Assembly (NCBI GenBank): GCA_012839145.1
Contig: DUNY01000257.1
Coordinates: 1-14,223, forward strand
DNA: 14,223 bases
Direction: 5' to 3'
Source of the DNA: Thermoanaerobacterales bacterium
Lineage (GTDB): Bacteria; Bacillota; Thermosediminibacteria; Thermosediminibacterales; Tepidanaerobacteraceae
The translations under genes were made by a program, and so were the position numbers. Every line of letters begins with the position of its first letter. Position 1 is the first letter of the stretch. Positions 1 through 12,156 of this stretch are shown in pieces. A model generated the notes under the pieces. It was not told the origin of the DNA. It worked only from the letters and a program-made list of their open reading frames with translations, and made no database searches.

Positions 1-279
1 GGTGCCATTGACCAAAAAATGAACATAATCGGCTCCAAAGGCTTGGGCTGCCAAATCTTCAGCCTCACGAATAACTCCCAAGGGATTACAGATGGTGTCT
101 AGGCCTAAAATACCAGAAGTAACATCGATTGACAGTACATTTTCACCAACAAAACTGCGAAATTCCGGTATGCCTTTGCCGCCTTTATGACCAGGTACAT
201 GAAATGAAACGGTCCTATCTTCTACGTACTTCTTCAAAGCATCAAAAAGCGGTGTTTTTTGCTGCTTTTTAAATTTCAT
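1..279 (-). CDS. Orn/Lys/Arg decarboxylase family PLP enzyme, N-terminal part (partial)
   Basis: This is an open frame of 93 codons running off the window edge, so only the N-terminus is visible. The start ATG (complement of 277-279) is preceded by AAAGGGGAG at good spacing. The protein begins MKFKKQQKTPLFDALKKY and then has FHVPGHKGG, IDVTSG and a visible end at VNGT. The 'P-L-x-x-A-L ... F-H-x-P-G-H-K' signature near residue 30 is characteristic of the fold-type I PLP decarboxylases of basic amino acids (SpeA, YaaO, lysine decarboxylase). The PLP-binding lysine and C-terminal domain lie outside the window, so the substrate cannot be decided. In Bacillus and many Clostridia a family member precedes tmk, close to the replication origin. 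That is family knowledge, not something visible here. No defect is seen in the part present. Confidence 0.85.
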   Translation of the reverse strand, partial: MKFKKQQKTPLFDALKKYVEDRTVSFHVPGHKGGKGIPEFRSFVGENVLSIDVTSGILGLDTICNPLGVIREAEDLAAQAFGADYVHFLVNGT

Positions 280-683: not shown

Positions 684-1400
684 TTATCTAAAGGCGAGTT
701 TGATGGTTCTGTCGATTTTACCTCTGGCTTCTTTCCACCAGTCTAACACTTTGAAACGTATTTCTACAGGTATGTCACCGGAGGTCTTGGCTGTTTCTAT
801 TGCTGTCATTTCTTGTGCAGTCAACACTTTGCTCATCCTCGATCTTGCCTCATCCTCTGTTATTCCATGGGTTATATCCACAAAGCACAGTGGCGGAAAC
901 AGCACACACCACCAATTAGCTCCTTTCCCGCTGCCTATAATTATCCGGAGAGCCTCATATTCTCCGGCCGGAAGAGTTGCATATCCATAAGTTTTTACCG
1001 GAAATGGAAATTTACCAAACATGGCGGTTGCACTGTAGTTTTTACCGCTTTTTTTGATTTCTCGGCGGGCTACTTCTTCAAGGTCTTTTATGTTGTTTTT
1101 TATATGTTCACGGGATTCGTTAATATCATCTATATCCTCAAACTCTCTGTCCAGGGTTTTTATTATGGCATCTCTTACCTTGAGCTTTAAATCCTGATCC
1201 TCAGGAGAGTCACTGTTAGCAATAACATGAAGTCTGATAAGTTTTGATGAAAGCTGCTGCTGTGTGGTTATATCACCGACACTGTCTTCTGGGCCGCCGG
1301 CAAGGCCACTGCTGCCTACCAGGGCTGCCACTAATGACATTATAAATATTCCAACAGTAACTAGGGTAGTTTTCTTCAATTCTCTTAGCTTGCTATCCAC
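684..1400 (-). CDS. spoIIR: Stage II sporulation protein R (SpoIIR)
   Basis: 238 aa. SpoIIR is made in the forespore under sigma-F and exported to the intermembrane space, where it triggers the SpoIIGA protease to activate pro-sigma-E in the mother cell. The sequence shows a short basic N-terminus, one hydrophobic segment (about residues 12-34) serving as signal or anchor, and the family hallmark KLIRLHVIANSDSPEDQ followed by LKLKVRDAII (about residues 53-80). Length is normal for the family. The start is GTG at 1400, preceded by GGGAGAG; no better in-frame ATG is present. It lies about 78 nt downstream of gerC on the same strand, is followed by a strong hairpin, and has a sigma-F-like -10 element in the gap. 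It may therefore be expressed separately from the germination genes, which in Bacillus are sigma-G dependent. Confidence 0.95.
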   Translation of the reverse strand: MDSKLRELKKTTLVTVGIFIMSLVAALVGSSGLAGGPEDSVGDITTQQQLSSKLIRLHVIANSDSPEDQDLKLKVRDAIIKTLDREFEDIDDINESREHIKNNIKDLEEVARREIKKSGKNYSATAMFGKFPFPVKTYGYATLPAGEYEALRIIIGSGKGANWWCVLFPPLCFVDITHGITEDEARSRMSKVLTAQEMTAIETAKTSGDIPVEIRFKVLDWWKEARGKIDRTIKLAFR

Positions 1401-8177: not shown

Positions 8178-9542
8178 ATGAACTTTACTCGAGACGAAAT
8201 AATTGAAACAATCCGCATGGTACAAGCAGAACAACTTGATATCAGGACTGTCACACTGGGAATAAGCCTGAGGGATTGTGCTAGTTCTTCAATTTCTGCG
8301 GTGGCTGATAAAATCTATGGTAAATTAATGGATAAAGGCAGGGAATTGGTACCGGTAGCCCTAGCTCTGGAAAAGGAGTTCGGAATACCCATCGTAAATA
8401 AACGGATTTCTGTAACACCTATTGCCATGGTAGCCGAAAGCTGTATGGAAAGCAATTATACCCCTATAGCTCAAGCAATGGATAGGGCAGCCAAGGATTT
8501 GGGCATTGATTTTATAGGAGGATTTTCAGCGCTGGTGCAAAAGGGCTTTACTCGGGGAGATATGAATCTGTTAAATTCCATTCCTGAAAGCTTGGCACTA
8601 ACCGAAAGGGTGTGTGCATCGGTAAACTTGGCCACAAGTAAAGCGGGAATTAATATGGATGCAGTCCTTGCTATGGGCAGAATTATTAAAGAAGTGGCAG
8701 AGTTGACAGGTGGTCAGGACGGTATTGGTGCCGCAAAACTGGTGGTTTTTGCTAATGCCCCTGAGGATAACCCCTTTATGGCAGGTGCCTTTCACGGTCC
8801 TGGAGAACCGGAAACCGCAGTGAATGTAGGAATTAGCGGTCCAGGGGTGGTGAACACTGTTGTGTCCAATCTTCCCAAAGGCGCTGATTTAGGTGAAGTT
8901 TCTGAAGCCATTAAGCGCATGGCTTTTAAAATCACTCGTGTTGGAGAACTAATCGGTCGAGAAGCATCCCGCAGGCTGGGAGCACCCTTTGGCATTATTG
9001 ATTTGTCACTGGCACCCACTCCTGCCGTCGGTGACAGTATCGCAAACATATTAGAAGCAATGGGCCTTGAGCGATGCGGTGCTCCCGGAACCACGGCAGC
9101 TTTGGCACTGCTCAATGATGCAGTTAAAAAAGGTGGAGCTATGGCAACTTCCTATGTGGGAGGTCTTTCGGGAGCTTTTATTCCCGTGAGTGAGGATGCA
9201 GGTATGATTCGTGCCGCAGCTGATGGGGCTCTTACCCTGGAAAAACTTGAAGCCATGACTTGTGTATGCTCAGTAGGCCTTGACATGATTGCCATTCCCG
9301 GAGATACATCTGCTGAAACCATAGCTGCCATCATTGCCGACGAAATGGCCATTGGTGTAATGAACAAAAAGACTACAGCCGTCAGAATAATCCCGGCACC
9401 GGGCAAAAAGGCAGGAGATTCGGTGGAATTCGGTGGACTTTTGGGACGGGCTCCGGTAATGCCGGTCAGCACCTTTGACTCTTCAGTCTTTGCTCGAAGA
9501 GGCGGACAAATTCCACCACCAATACAAAGCTTAACAAATTAG
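8178..9542 (+). CDS. PFL family protein, UPF0210/DUF711
   Basis: 454 aa, normal length for UPF0210. The family is structurally related to the pyruvate formate-lyase/ribonucleotide reductase barrel but lacks the glycyl-radical motif (RVxGY-type), and none is seen here. Characteristic stretches are intact: [11 protein letters not shown] near the N-terminus, [38 protein letters not shown] (shown as [11 protein letters not shown] then GISGPG), [25 protein letters not shown], and the C-terminal [15 protein letters not shown]. The ATG has AGGAGG 8-9 nt upstream. It follows the ACT gene by 11 nt, forming the conserved ACT-PFL pair, which suggests that the ACT protein senses or regulates something linked to this enzyme. 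The reaction remains unassigned, so the name is a family name only. Confidence 0.95.
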
Positions 9543-9624: not shown

Positions 9625-9723
9625 AGAGGCTTTCCTGCACTAAGTTGTTAACAACCATGGCCTAAGCCCTCGACTATAACAAAAATCTATTTTCCAGTTA
9701 TGTTATATTTAAAAACAGCTGTT

Positions 9724-9763
9724 GTGAATTGCCCCCCGCAGTAGACAGTTAAAATTGTTTACT
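9724..9763. repeat. IS-end-like sequence (IS3-family resemblance)
   Basis: TGTGAATTGCCCCCCGCAG is followed by AGTAGACA (9740-9747), an 8-nt spacer and TGTTTACT (9756-9763), a hairpin with one mismatch. A C-rich tract plus an AGTAGACA/TGTCTACT dyad resembles left ends of some IS3-family elements in Clostridia. No transposase frame, matching right end or target duplication is visible, so at most it is a remnant. Recognition is by resemblance only. Confidence 0.3.
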
Positions 9764-9781
9764 ATAAAGGGAGCATATACA

Positions 9782-9916
9782 TTGAAGACAAGTTTTTTTA
9801 AGATATATATATCAAAAACATACAAAATTTTTATAAATAACTATAAATTTTCCATATTTGAGTCGATAATTGGTATAATCCGTAAAATTTTTGACCCATT
9901 AAATAGGCCTAAATAA
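9782..9916 (+). CDS. Possible 44-aa basic peptide, doubtful
   Basis: A TTG-initiated frame of 44 codons is preceded by AAAGGGAG (9766-9773) at 8-nt spacing. The product starts MKTSFFKIYISKTYK and is rich in Lys, Ile and Phe, with no recognisable motif. Against it: the region is extremely AT-rich, the amino acids are those expected from AT-rich noncoding DNA, and the start is TTG. It ends 5 nt before the first DnaA box. It may simply be part of an AT-rich unwinding-type region. Confidence 0.2.
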   Translation: MKTSFFKIYISKTYKIFINNYKFSIFESIIGIIRKIFDPLNRPK

Positions 9917-9921
9917 TTAAG

Positions 9922-10024
9922 TTATCCACAGAGTTATACACAGGTGTTAATAACTTTAAACCATGTCCCAATGATTATGTCTAAGGACAGGCTACTTTTC
10001 CCCATTGGGGATAACTTATCCACA
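9922..10024. other. DnaA-box cluster (origin-like or DnaA-titration site)
   Basis: Three exact matches to TTATNCACA occur on the plus strand: TTATCCACA (9922-9930), TTATACACA (9934-9942) and TTATCCACA (10016-10024). Two one-mismatch sites lie on the minus strand: 9945-9953 (TGTTAATAA as read on plus) and 10006-10014 (TGGGGATAA). The first pair are in phase 12 nt apart, as in many bacterial oriC regions. The last two form the head-to-head dyad GGATAACTTATCC. Just upstream, 9785-9920 is very AT-rich, as a DNA unwinding element would be. No dnaA, dnaN, parA or rep gene is in the window, and flanking genes converge on the site, opposite to a standard Firmicutes oriC. The cluster itself is seen directly; its function is inferred. 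Confidence 0.7.
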
Positions 10025-10043
10025 ATTATGTTGATAGAAAAAT

Positions 10044-10105
10044 GCAATAGGAAAATGGGCCTAAAAACTTTTGTTTTGTGGTACAGTTTTTGCATCTCCT
10101 ATTGC
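10044..10105. repeat. 9-bp-arm inverted repeat beside the DnaA boxes
   Basis: GCAATAGGA (10044-10052) is matched by its exact reverse complement TCCTATTGC (10097-10105), with 44 nt between. It begins 20 nt after the last DnaA box. A further CCGCTA ... TAGCGG pair (about 10137-10168) follows. The arms could be binding sites for a dimeric protein or a long hairpin; no family is recognised. Confidence 0.45.
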
Positions 10106-10574
10106 TTCCATACTTTGTAAACAATATTATACATACCGCTACTTAAGCAGCTGCAACCATATTATGACAGTATAGCGGAACGGTGTTTTTCACCTTCTGA
10201 AAGTTATTACGAGGATGGTTTTTTGTCAATTCCTTAGTTTAGTTATGTAACACATGCGTCTGATGGCAACTGTAATGCTTCACATGCTTCCAGCCTTGCA
10301 TAACGCACAGAGTAATGATGGTTTTAGATGGTTGCTCATCAAGTTTATGGGTTCATCTGAAAAGGATTTTATTCGAGTTTCAAGATATTGAATGTATACA
10401 AAAAGCATGCCCCTTCTGTTGGTCTTGTTTTATTTGATATTTGAAATTTACCACAGAATGGCATACTTTTTCATTTTACTCGTTTATTTACTTTTGACGG
10501 CTTTATGTTTTGACCCATTGCACAGCAATTTTGTTATTTCTATATCACAATATAATATTTTCCAGGTAGCAAAA

Positions 10575-10604
10575 GGGTGACAGCAGAACCGTCCCCTGTC
10601 ACCC
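10575..10604 (-). terminator. GGTGACAGGGGACGG-type palindrome serving as SLH-operon terminator
   Basis: On the minus strand GGGTGACAG (complement of 10596-10604) and CTGTCACCC (complement of 10575-10583) make a 9-bp perfect stem with a 12-nt loop, followed by TTTT. It lies 46 nt past the SLH gene stop. The GTGACAGGGGACGGTTCT string recurs, from memory, as an intergenic repeat in Clostridia. It is probably a REP-like element that has taken on, or always had, terminator function. Confidence 0.65.
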
Positions 10605-10630
10605 ACGGGAAATACTTTCATTTACCGTGG
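10603..10630. repeat. Second hairpin downstream of the SLH gene
   Basis: CCACGG (10603-10608) and CCGTGG (10625-10630) pair, extended inward across one mismatch by AAAT/ATTT, leaving a 6-nt loop. It directly adjoins the GTGACAG palindrome and lies 20 nt after the SLH gene stop. The two hairpins may act together to end or stabilise the transcript. Confidence 0.5.
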
Positions 10631-10650
10631 TGCGGACAGCATGAGGATTC

Positions 10651-12156
10651 TTAGTTGTACAATATAATATTTTCACGATAGTCCTGTTGGAGATCCTTTT
10701 CGAGAAATTCCAAAAATCTTACTAACATGGCAGAGGATTCTGCCCTTGTCATTATTTTGCCGGGATTAAATCGGTTATAACTGTCACCTTGAATGATGCC
10801 GATTTCCCGGGCTACATATACACTATCCCTAGCCCAGGAAGGAATTTTGTCATCATCGGAAAAAGAGGTGTAATAACCGGGGTTAGGAGCCCGACTGCCA
10901 AATCCCAATGCCCTTATCAGTATAGTAACTGCCTGAGCCCTCGTAAGAGAGCCTTTTGGATCAAATAAATAATTTGAAACTCCTGCAATTATGTTCTTCT
11001 CCAAACCTTGTTTTATATATTGGAAGTCCTCATCCTCAACCTGAACATCCTTGAAGGGTGATTCCTCAGGTGGTTCCTTTCGCCGGCTTGACCTTTTGTT
11101 TTTGTCATCCTCCATGGATGACCTGATGTCACAAGCCCTAATGACGCCCTTTGTAAATTCCACCCGGGTCATGGGAACTTCAGGAGTGAAAAAATTGGGA
11201 CTTTCATCAAAAACATCCAGGGAGTAAAGTTTTGTTATATATTCCTCAGCCCAGTGTCCCATAACATCTCTAAATTTTGGTACTGGCAATCTTTCCACTC
11301 GAGGTACCATTTTGGCAGAAAGACTTATAGAGTCCTGCAACCTTTTCTTGCTGTCAGGAATATTATCACGTATGCGGGGAAGGTCATATTCATACCTTGA
11401 GACCATTTCCCTATTGGTTGTTCGAATGTAGCCACCGTAAAAGCTGGAAAGAGTTGCTTCATTTTCAGAATACACAAGCCTTTTTGTCATGCTGTCTGAA
11501 ACCTCTGCCTTCACACTACCTCCCCAGGACACCATTTCAGTATTGTTTTCTTCATCAGTTACCTTGCGCTTTGATGTAATGTAATAATTGATAATTTGAG
11601 TCTCAGTGCTGCCCCAAAAATTCTCATATCCTACATTACCACCTGAAATAGTAACTACAACTTCACCTTCATCACGATTTAGTTTGTAGAATTTTCGGCC
11701 TTCCAAATTCCCAGAATAAAAATCTGATGCCGGCCGCTTGTCAATCACATCTGCCTTGGAAAACTGAAAATCCTCCAGTACGTATTTGTCTTTCCCTATG
11801 TCTATTTTTTCCGAGTACCTTCTCAAAGTTGTCTGAGCAGTAGCTTGTCCTTTGTCATCTCGCTCGATATACTCTGTAACCAAAGTAATTTGCCTAGTCA
11901 GTTTGGTTTTTATTGTTTCATCTTTGTCGGTAAGGTTGTATGTGTATTTAACCGTCTCGGTATCTCCGCTCCTGCTTTCTGATACCTTTACATCTAATTC
12001 ACCGGAAAACTTCATGGGCTTTCCGGTGATAAATACAATTTCTTCATACTGGTATTCGTTGTTGACACCTCCGTCAAAACCGGACGGAGCACCAAAGGCT
12101 TGCAGGGGATTCAATAACATAGTCATCAGTATAAAAAACATCATAAATTTTTTCAT
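10651..12156 (-). CDS. Secreted protein with three C-terminal SLH domains
   Basis: 501 aa. An exported surface protein held to the cell wall by SLH domains, which bind pyruvylated or other secondary wall polymers. Signal peptide: basic MKKF, hydrophobic core to about residue 20, likely cleavage after AFG. Residues about 30-290 form a beta-rich domain of unknown function with many Thr/Lys/Glu strands. Three SLH modules follow: FRDVMGHWAEEYI (from 295) with MTRVEF (329-334), FKDV (from 368) with LTRAQA (404-409), and FSDD (from 432) with MTRAES (469-474). A highly charged linker (about 345-365, DDKNKRSSRRKEPP) separates modules 1 and 2. AGGGGGG stands 6 nt before the ATG. It follows the 553-aa protein gene by 11 nt, so it is the last gene of a surface-protein operon. 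Its specific role is unknown. Confidence 0.92.
   Translation of the reverse strand: MKKFMMFFILMTMLLNPLQAFGAPSGFDGGVNNEYQYEEIVFITGKPMKFSGELDVKVSESRSGDTETVKYTYNLTDKDETIKTKLTRQITLVTEYIERDDKGQATAQTTLRRYSEKIDIGKDKYVLEDFQFSKADVIDKRPASDFYSGNLEGRKFYKLNRDEGEVVVTISGGNVGYENFWGSTETQIINYYITSKRKVTDEENNTEMVSWGGSVKAEVSDSMTKRLVYSENEATLSSFYGGYIRTTNREMVSRYEYDLPRIRDNIPDSKKRLQDSISLSAKMVPRVERLPVPKFRDVMGHWAEEYITKLYSLDVFDESPNFFTPEVPMTRVEFTKGVIRACDIRSSMEDDKNKRSSRRKEPPEESPFKDVQVEDEDFQYIKQGLEKNIIAGVSNYLFDPKGSLTRAQAVTILIRALGFGSRAPNPGYYTSFSDDDKIPSWARDSVYVAREIGIIQGDSYNRFNPGKIMTRAESSAMLVRFLEFLEKDLQQDYRENIILYN

Follow-up and report, generated by a model that had tools for sequence, protein, structure and literature searches.

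The bipartite replication origin of Bacillota is composed of two halves, i.e., oriC1 between rpmH and dnaA and a second half between dnaA and dnaN. In the known bipartite origins, one half is about a dnaA length away from the other. The oriC1 half carries tandem DnaA boxes placed 12 nt apart and then an inverted box. In C. difficile, both halves are described as needed for unwinding in vitro (PMC7561715). For B. subtilis, a DnaA-mediated loop between oriC1 and oriC2 is described, and the same source states that oriC1 'may serve as replication enhancer' (PMC13220808).

DnaA-box clusters (DBCs) are also described away from the origin. Those of B. subtilis, e.g., gcp-ydiF, hold several intergenic boxes away from oriC, and one of them is placed between two gene 3' ends (PMC4447404). 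The joint deletion of six such clusters outside oriC is reported to cause early initiation (PMC5295017, PMC13220808); nonetheless, the role of the clusters is judged not significant in PMC5295017. The E. coli datA is another non-coding DnaA-box cluster, and in glyY-queG a two-mismatch box and a perfect box are in tandem, 12 nt apart. The essential boxes of datA are described as lying in one direction, and IHF as needed (PMC5742627).

The window, i.e., the whole stretch of 14,223 nt that was analysed, is contig C285 of a 493-contig, 2.58-Mb assembly (G000). It holds a DnaA-box element which starts with an oriC1-like arrangement but, in 6/6 genomes with the two on one contig, lies 64-176 kb from dnaA and not between rpmH and dnaA. 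The element is also reversed relative to dnaA in comparison with oriC1, and adds a block of three sites (D-E-F) not seen in the oriC1 regions inspected. Its box directions are mixed over the six sites; the single direction described for datA concerns the essential boxes. As in the B. subtilis DBCs, it has three or more boxes, is intergenic and is placed away from oriC, but it keeps one fixed six-site design across two families, a difference from clusters that are known here by description.

Architecture of the DnaA-box element

Exact DnaA boxes (TTATNCACA) were found in the window at 9922, 9934 and 10016, all on the plus strand, and one-mismatch boxes at 9945 and 10006 on the minus strand. The first-pass annotation had reported three perfect and two one-mismatch boxes within 103 nt, and all five were recovered. 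It had missed a two-mismatch site, D, at 9996-10004. Together they form an element of 103 nt (9922-10024) with six sites, A to F, of which A, B, D and F are on the plus strand and C and E on the minus strand.

Box A (9922..9930, plus) is TTATCCACA and is identical in 22/22 genomes of the order. Box B (9934..9942, plus) is TTATACACA and starts 12 nt after A in 22/22, so that the earlier description of two boxes 12 nt apart (starts 9922 and 9934) holds. It is a perfect box in 21 of the 22 genomes, and its variation is almost confined to the free fifth position, with one exception. Box C (9945..9953, minus) reads TTATTAACA with one mismatch and starts 23 nt after A in every member. A-B-C is an oriC1-type triple, i.e., two tandem boxes and then one inverted.

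The spacer between C and D (9954..9995) is 42 nt long in the window and 41-43 nt across the 22 genomes. The mean pairwise identity of the spacer was 0.56, and values went down to 0.23 (92 pairs of equal length). Within it, a C-N-TGT motif at 9962-9966 is nearly invariant, the C and both T being found in 22/22.

Site D (9996..10004, plus) is TTTTCCCCA, with two mismatches, and is the left arm of a near-dyad with site E (10006..10014, minus), which reads TTATCCCCA, with one mismatch, in 20/22. Across the order, D is a one-mismatch box in 9/22 and is TTATCCCCA (one mismatch) in 8/22; the D-E dyad is perfect in eight of the 22 genomes. Two genomes from different genera, G006 and G014, have the perfect box TTATACACA at E, and there the D-E mirror is lost. 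Binding of DnaA is favoured over a hairpin, because E turns into a perfect box in these two genomes and no longer mirrors D. Box F (10016..10024, plus) is TTATCCACA in 21/22 and lies 93-95 nt after A, which is approximately nine helical turns. A dyad of two boxes had been noticed at first pass; it is the pair at 10006 (minus) and 10016 (plus), i.e., E and F, arranged back-to-back. The site order in 22/22 is A (plus), B (plus) at +12, C (minus) at +23, D (plus) at +73-75, E (minus) at D+10, and F (plus) at E+10.

Sites with zero or one mismatch were not enriched window-wide, i.e., 23 were found versus 17.6 expected, and 27/200 shuffles reached 23. The exceptional feature is the clustering of exact sites, not their window-wide number. 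The expectation of one perfect site per 30 kb per strand, given at first pass, was about right. The 2.58-Mb assembly holds 105 exact boxes (55 + 50 per strand; 49 + 37 in the reversed control), and a first-order Markov simulation with the window composition gave one exact site per 19.6 kb (both strands). In 40 Mb of Markov simulation, no three exact sites started within 95 nt. The cluster is real, and chance is not its source.

The stretch at 9785-9920 has 20% G+C, compared with 41% in the whole window, and was correctly called very AT-rich. The AT fraction of the 100 nt left of the element ranged from 0.52 to 0.78 in the 13 members looked at; therefore, the AT-rich stretch is not conserved.

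Conservation and gene neighbourhood

The element is present once in each of the 22 genomes of this order of heat-loving bacteria, of which the named families are Tepidanaerobacteraceae and Thermosediminibacteraceae. Absence of the boxes in close relatives had been named at first pass as evidence against its reading of the cluster, and it was clearly not observed. The box spacing is constant to within 1 nt in the 22 genomes, and the spacer sequence and flanks drift. In 20 sequences, the core had a mean column identity of 0.81 with 51/103 invariant columns; the 100-nt flanks had 0.46 and 0.51 with zero invariant columns.

The intergenic region was searched by blastn against 41 genomes (its own and 40 relatives), and 24 had matches, including all 22 order members. 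Matches in the order cover the core (about 9921-10030) or pieces thereof, and those beyond the order were short, i.e., inside the core in G029 and outside the core in G031. A three-box pattern was found in 21/26 class genomes, every one in the order, and had no match in the 4/4 class genomes outside the order. The order member missed by this pattern was G001, in which the element is present with box F changed. In a 398-genome sample of the phylum, the pattern was found in 20 genomes, i.e., 12 of the order and 8 others, and these 8 differ in the sequence inside the pattern. A strict pattern hit 13 places in named genomes, all among the 22 order members already counted, and did not recover the remaining nine. 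The genera are Tepidanaerobacter, Thermosediminibacter, Thermovorax and Fervidicola, together with further assemblies of both families. No description of the element was found in titles and abstract openings of the open-licence PubMed Central literature, and nothing pairing Tepidanaerobacter with DnaA boxes was found in that literature.

The left neighbour of the element is a DUF711 protein gene (8178..9542, plus) and the right neighbour is an S-layer-homology protein gene (10651..12156, minus), and they converge on the element, as was noticed at first pass. The gene at the left edge of the window, called YaaO-like before, is an Orn/Lys/Arg decarboxylase gene. The spoIIR gene is at 684..1400 on the minus strand. 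Eleven order genomes were searched for spoIIR. It was located 5-26 kb from the element on the same contig in eight of them and on another contig in G017 and G018, and was not found in G012. The ywlB-ywlC pair of B. subtilis presumably lies near spoIIR as well, and this shared proximity may be coincidence. A DnaA site of B. subtilis is described between these two genes (PMC4447404).

Twenty neighbourhoods were surveyed, with families assigned by blastp and small ORFs left unjudged, and four arrangements were recognized, one of them convergent. The element is placed between converging DUF711 and S-layer-type genes in G000, G010, G012, G002, G011, G007 and G004. G006 resembles this arrangement but sits at a contig edge. 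In G014, G015, G016, G017, G018 and G020, the element is 5' of a giant protein gene, F0, of about 2,300 aa. It is beside another large protein gene, F11, in G003, G005, G008 and G009, and beside a ger-type gene, F10, in G013 and G019. Because there are four arrangements and one is between converging genes, the element is not tied to one gene.

The side on which the S-layer-type operon flanks the element differs between members, right or left, and no inversion accompanies the change (L071-L086), so either the operon or the element moved across. In G005, a c-di-GMP-I riboswitch (68.7 bits, L017:1314-1397, minus) is located approximately 100 nt from the element. Short blastn matches in some genomes fell at 10572-10650, pieces of which match five other places in the window's own assembly and four in G004 (85-97% identity), so that a small dispersed repeat is contained in this stretch. 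An inverted repeat was recognized by eye at 10044-10051 and 10098-10105 and is perhaps a terminator of the converging genes. In the Rfam search, FuFi-1 was matched at 10039-10179 on the minus strand with 23.3 bits, below the threshold of 59.6.

Position relative to dnaA and relation to oriC1

The window holds no dnaA, as stated at first pass. The dnaA match of this genome is on contig C344 and the element on C285, and in this genome the position of the element relative to dnaA would be placed by synteny only. The cumulative GC-skew was calculated over 400 kb around dnaA in three closed relatives. In G013, the minimum was at +1688, inside the dnaA-dnaN gap (1452-1701), and the element at -71 kb. 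In G010, the minimum was at +1974, 0.14 kb into dnaN (gap 1572-1830), with the element at -176 kb, and in G005 at +1769, also 0.14 kb into dnaN (gap 1366-1625), with the element at -120 kb. In three draft genomes, the element and dnaA share a contig and are 114, 68 and 64 kb apart. In 6/6 linked genomes, the element is a left-arm locus at a distance of 64-176 kb and points the same way as dnaA.

The dnaA-dnaN region shows boxes and then a DnaA-trio-like run, recognized by pattern in G010 and G005 and by eye in G013. At the element, four consecutive TAR or YTA triplets were absent in 4/4 loci. An unusual oriC had been one suggestion of the first-pass annotation, which had named a distant skew origin and a distant dnaA as evidence against it. 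Both were found far from the element in the three closed relatives, and an origin at the element was rejected on the skew minimum at dnaA-dnaN and on the DnaA-trio, which was not found at the element. A plasmid or mobile origin was also rejected, as 9700-10200 had no plasmid match and the head is found once per order genome in one neighbourhood.

The head A-B-C was searched as the pattern TTATNNACA-2..4-TTATNNACA-1..4-TGTNNATAA. It was found exactly once in each of the 22 order genomes, at the element, and upstream of dnaA in 4/4 sister-class genomes. Among other genomes of the phylum, 11/30 had the pattern, and in 10 of these 11 it preceded the DnaA Pfam match by at most 1.9 kb, G029 being the exception. 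The reversed control had no match in any of the 56 genomes. A slightly tighter pattern was found in 95 genomes of the 398-genome phylum sample, and its control was without matches. Outside the order, 31 of the 34 triple loci examined encode dnaA and/or rpmH within 1.5 kb; these 34 loci come from only 15 families and are not a random draw. The triples not beside dnaA or rpmH are L203, L295 and L296 (G029, G178 and G078). The oriC1 triples run opposite to dnaA in 28/28 loci with one clear orientation.

No exact box was found over the 1500 nt that precede the DnaA Pfam match in 14/15 order genomes with this stretch complete, the exception being G012 with one exact box at -880. G002, for which a shorter stretch of 524 nt was available and which is counted apart from the 15, had none. 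The same 1500 nt outside the order held at least two exact boxes in 4/4 class genomes and 21/26 phylum genomes; of the remaining five phylum genomes, two had no box and three had one. The rpmH gene is still beside dnaA in the order, by motif in G010, G000, G006, G011 and G012 and by eye in G005 and G013. From the head-pattern and upstream-box counts, the triple is missing at rpmH-dnaA and present at the element in the same order.

A model of the element was also scored on other genomes, with up to 90 candidates per genome. The best scores outside the order were 36.2 bits for the tsaD-linked cluster of G022 (24.7 for its oriC1), 33.9 for C97 of G041, and 32.7 for C54 of G029. None of these three is at oriC1, and those of G041 and G029 are on contigs other than that of dnaA. 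The oriC1 was the best match in G023 and G024 and the second in G025. No counterpart of the D-E-F block was seen in the sister-class oriC1 regions inspected. In the sister class, the spoIIR side was also searched for an element. In G022, the only cluster in 1,020,000-1,189,999 was the origin, and no exact box was seen on the spoIIR contig of G024 (all 7.9 kb) or in 20 of the 38 kb of that of G025.

From these comparisons, we infer that the element may descend from oriC1, although the best model matches outside the order are not at oriC1 and D-E-F was not seen in the sister oriC1 regions inspected. It is also possible that a shared design of DnaA sites was used more than once. The L203, L295 and L296 triples and the model matches at L212 (G041) and L213 (G029) are perhaps further displaced elements.

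Candidate functions and other DnaA-box clusters

The element is considered to be a dedicated origin-proximal DnaA-binding control site, i.e., a sink or enhancer, which would replace the lost oriC1 and would be neither an origin nor a promoter site. We give this reading a probability of roughly 0.6. What the sequence shows is the architecture, the conservation, the position in relatives, and the absence of boxes upstream of dnaA (14/15). DnaA would bind at the element and initiation would be restrained. Because the head has the oriC1 signature and no boxes are at rpmH-dnaA in the order, the element most likely replaced that half of the bipartite origin which has the regulatory role. The titration site and the accessory origin part of the first-pass annotation both survive in sharpened form, i.e., as an oriC1 box signature in an order without boxes at the oriC1 position.

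Weak DnaA sites are known to be filled by cooperation. At the element, DnaA would load on the tandem A-B and on F, the predicted strong sites, and would spread to the weaker C, D and E to make one nucleoprotein complex, the geometry of which would be set by the spacing (A-F 93-95 nt). In six relatives the element is a left-arm locus at 64-176 kb from dnaA, so that it is replicated shortly after initiation, and its hold on DnaA would double near the new origins. The doubled sink may draw DnaA off these origins and restrain early re-initiation. The six B. subtilis clusters outside oriC are a precedent. The control-site reading has weak points. Most boxes at C, D and E are imperfect, and the element has no more than its head A-B-C in common with oriC1. 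The direction relative to dnaA differs (6/6 versus 28/28), the three best model matches outside the order are away from oriC1, and three of the 34 triples are not beside dnaA or rpmH. The box-poor region upstream of dnaA is also not unique to the order (5/26 other phylum genomes have none or one).

The same features can be read in terms of an origin that was split. Rather doubtful is the reading of the element as the actual oriC1, displaced by 64-176 kb and acting through DnaA looping as a long-range enhancer of the dnaA-dnaN half. The halves of known bipartite origins are only about one dnaA length apart, the orientation relative to dnaA is reversed here, the D-E-F block was not seen in the sister oriC1 regions inspected, and the best model matches outside the order are not at oriC1. 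It is favoured by the A-B-C triple, present at the element and missing at rpmH-dnaA in the same order, and by the DnaA looping of oriC1 and oriC2 with a possible enhancer role in B. subtilis (PMC13220808). A broader scenario is put forward tentatively. In the ancestor of the order, the oriC1 half may have left rpmH-dnaA, settled 64-176 kb off near spoIIR and gained D-E-F, and it may still control firing at dnaA-dnaN, either through DnaA bridges over a long range or as a sink that doubles early. Firing at the element itself, as an origin or accessory origin, is very improbable. The box cluster and the AT-rich DNA on its left in the window would suit it, but the skew minimum is elsewhere, the DnaA-trio was not found by pattern at the element in four loci, and the AT-rich stretch is not conserved. 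Among the putative second origins of Gao 2015, that of Dehalobacter sp. CF is similar in being a box cluster about 150 kb from dnaA; it adjoins parB (PMC4403523). Sites on the Gao list must have a skew switch as well as a replication gene, whereas the skew switch here is at dnaA-dnaN, and the Dehalobacter site is right of dnaA in the coordinates of its record, whereas the element is left of dnaA (PMC4403523).

Other functions of DnaA boxes have to be weighed against the control site. Read backwards, the head is C (plus), 11 nt, B (minus), 12 nt, A (minus), and may resemble a DARS, a site recharging ADP-DnaA. The E. coli boxes in bioD-uvrB and rppH-mutH, which we take to be the DARS1 and DARS2 cores, are box (plus), 14 nt, box (minus), 12 nt, box (minus). 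DARS box I is described as opposite to II and III, with the same spacing in DARS1 and DARS2 (PMC5742627). One box opposed to two tandem boxes (C versus B and A) and the tandem spacing of 12 are thus common to the element and the DARS cores, but the spacing of the opposed box (I-II) is 11 in the element and 14 in DARS. Recharging sites are not alone in this geometry, which clostridial oriC1 also has, and a DARS-like function is unlikely. DnaA could instead act as a transcription factor for a neighbour, e.g., the S-layer operon or the spoIIR/ger genes, as some B. subtilis clusters are described as promoters (PMC4447404) and the element is 5' of the left gene in 12/20 neighbourhoods. Such regulation has a low probability, as the element is between converging genes in 7/20 (G006, truncated at the end of its contig, would be an eighth) and does not change when its neighbours do. 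An RNA structure or terminator between converging genes, with incidental boxes, is hardly credible. D and E can pair, a second inverted repeat was seen by eye (10044-10105), and FuFi-1 was weakly matched at 10039-10179. The dyad is perfect in only 8/22, it is broken in G006 and G014 where E becomes a perfect DnaA box, and the FuFi-1 match is 36 bits below the threshold. As an RNA element, the locus was rejected after Rfam gave only the sub-threshold FuFi-1, which was absent at E <= 1 in a 12-locus search including L006.

The existence of the two halves on separate chromosome stretches would be a natural experiment on why Bacillota origins have two halves and on the role of the upstream one, as either half could be removed or relocated independently of the dnaA promoter. 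The fixed six-site design is also a clear target for work on the assembly of DnaA complexes at a distance from the origin.

The tsaD (gcp) gene was surveyed in 30 genomes of the phylum (loci L231-L260), and G023 was left out since its contig ends there. At least two exact boxes were found within 400 nt downstream of tsaD in 18/29 genomes, and none in 9/29. The downstream boxes total 56, mostly on one strand; the control region upstream of the gene had 2, and shuffled sequence 0.4. The clusters show recurring spacings, e.g., L266:9816-9901 and L244. The cluster is present in G003, G005, G013, G014 and G016 and absent in the window's genome and G010. In B. subtilis, one of eight strong DnaA sites is described downstream of gcp and ydiF (PMC4447404). 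The element and the tsaD-linked cluster suggest a wide conservation of non-origin DnaA control sites in the phylum.

The presumed E. coli DARS1 and DARS2 cores (L302:1108-1142) and the clostridial oriC1 share one layout, in which two tandem boxes with a spacing of 12 nt are opposed by a single box. DnaA-box clusters were also found upstream of an iorA-like gene in two genera, i.e., at L003:1826-1926 (G000:C448) and G010:C1:82461-82522 (in L146). This gene was read by eye as indolepyruvate ferredoxin oxidoreductase alpha, and the G010 cluster is 82 kb right of dnaA. At L004:1489-1685 (G000:C214), two plus-strand ORFs flank four exact boxes that fit into 200 nt. By eye, the ORF on the left reads as a secreted CAP-like protein.
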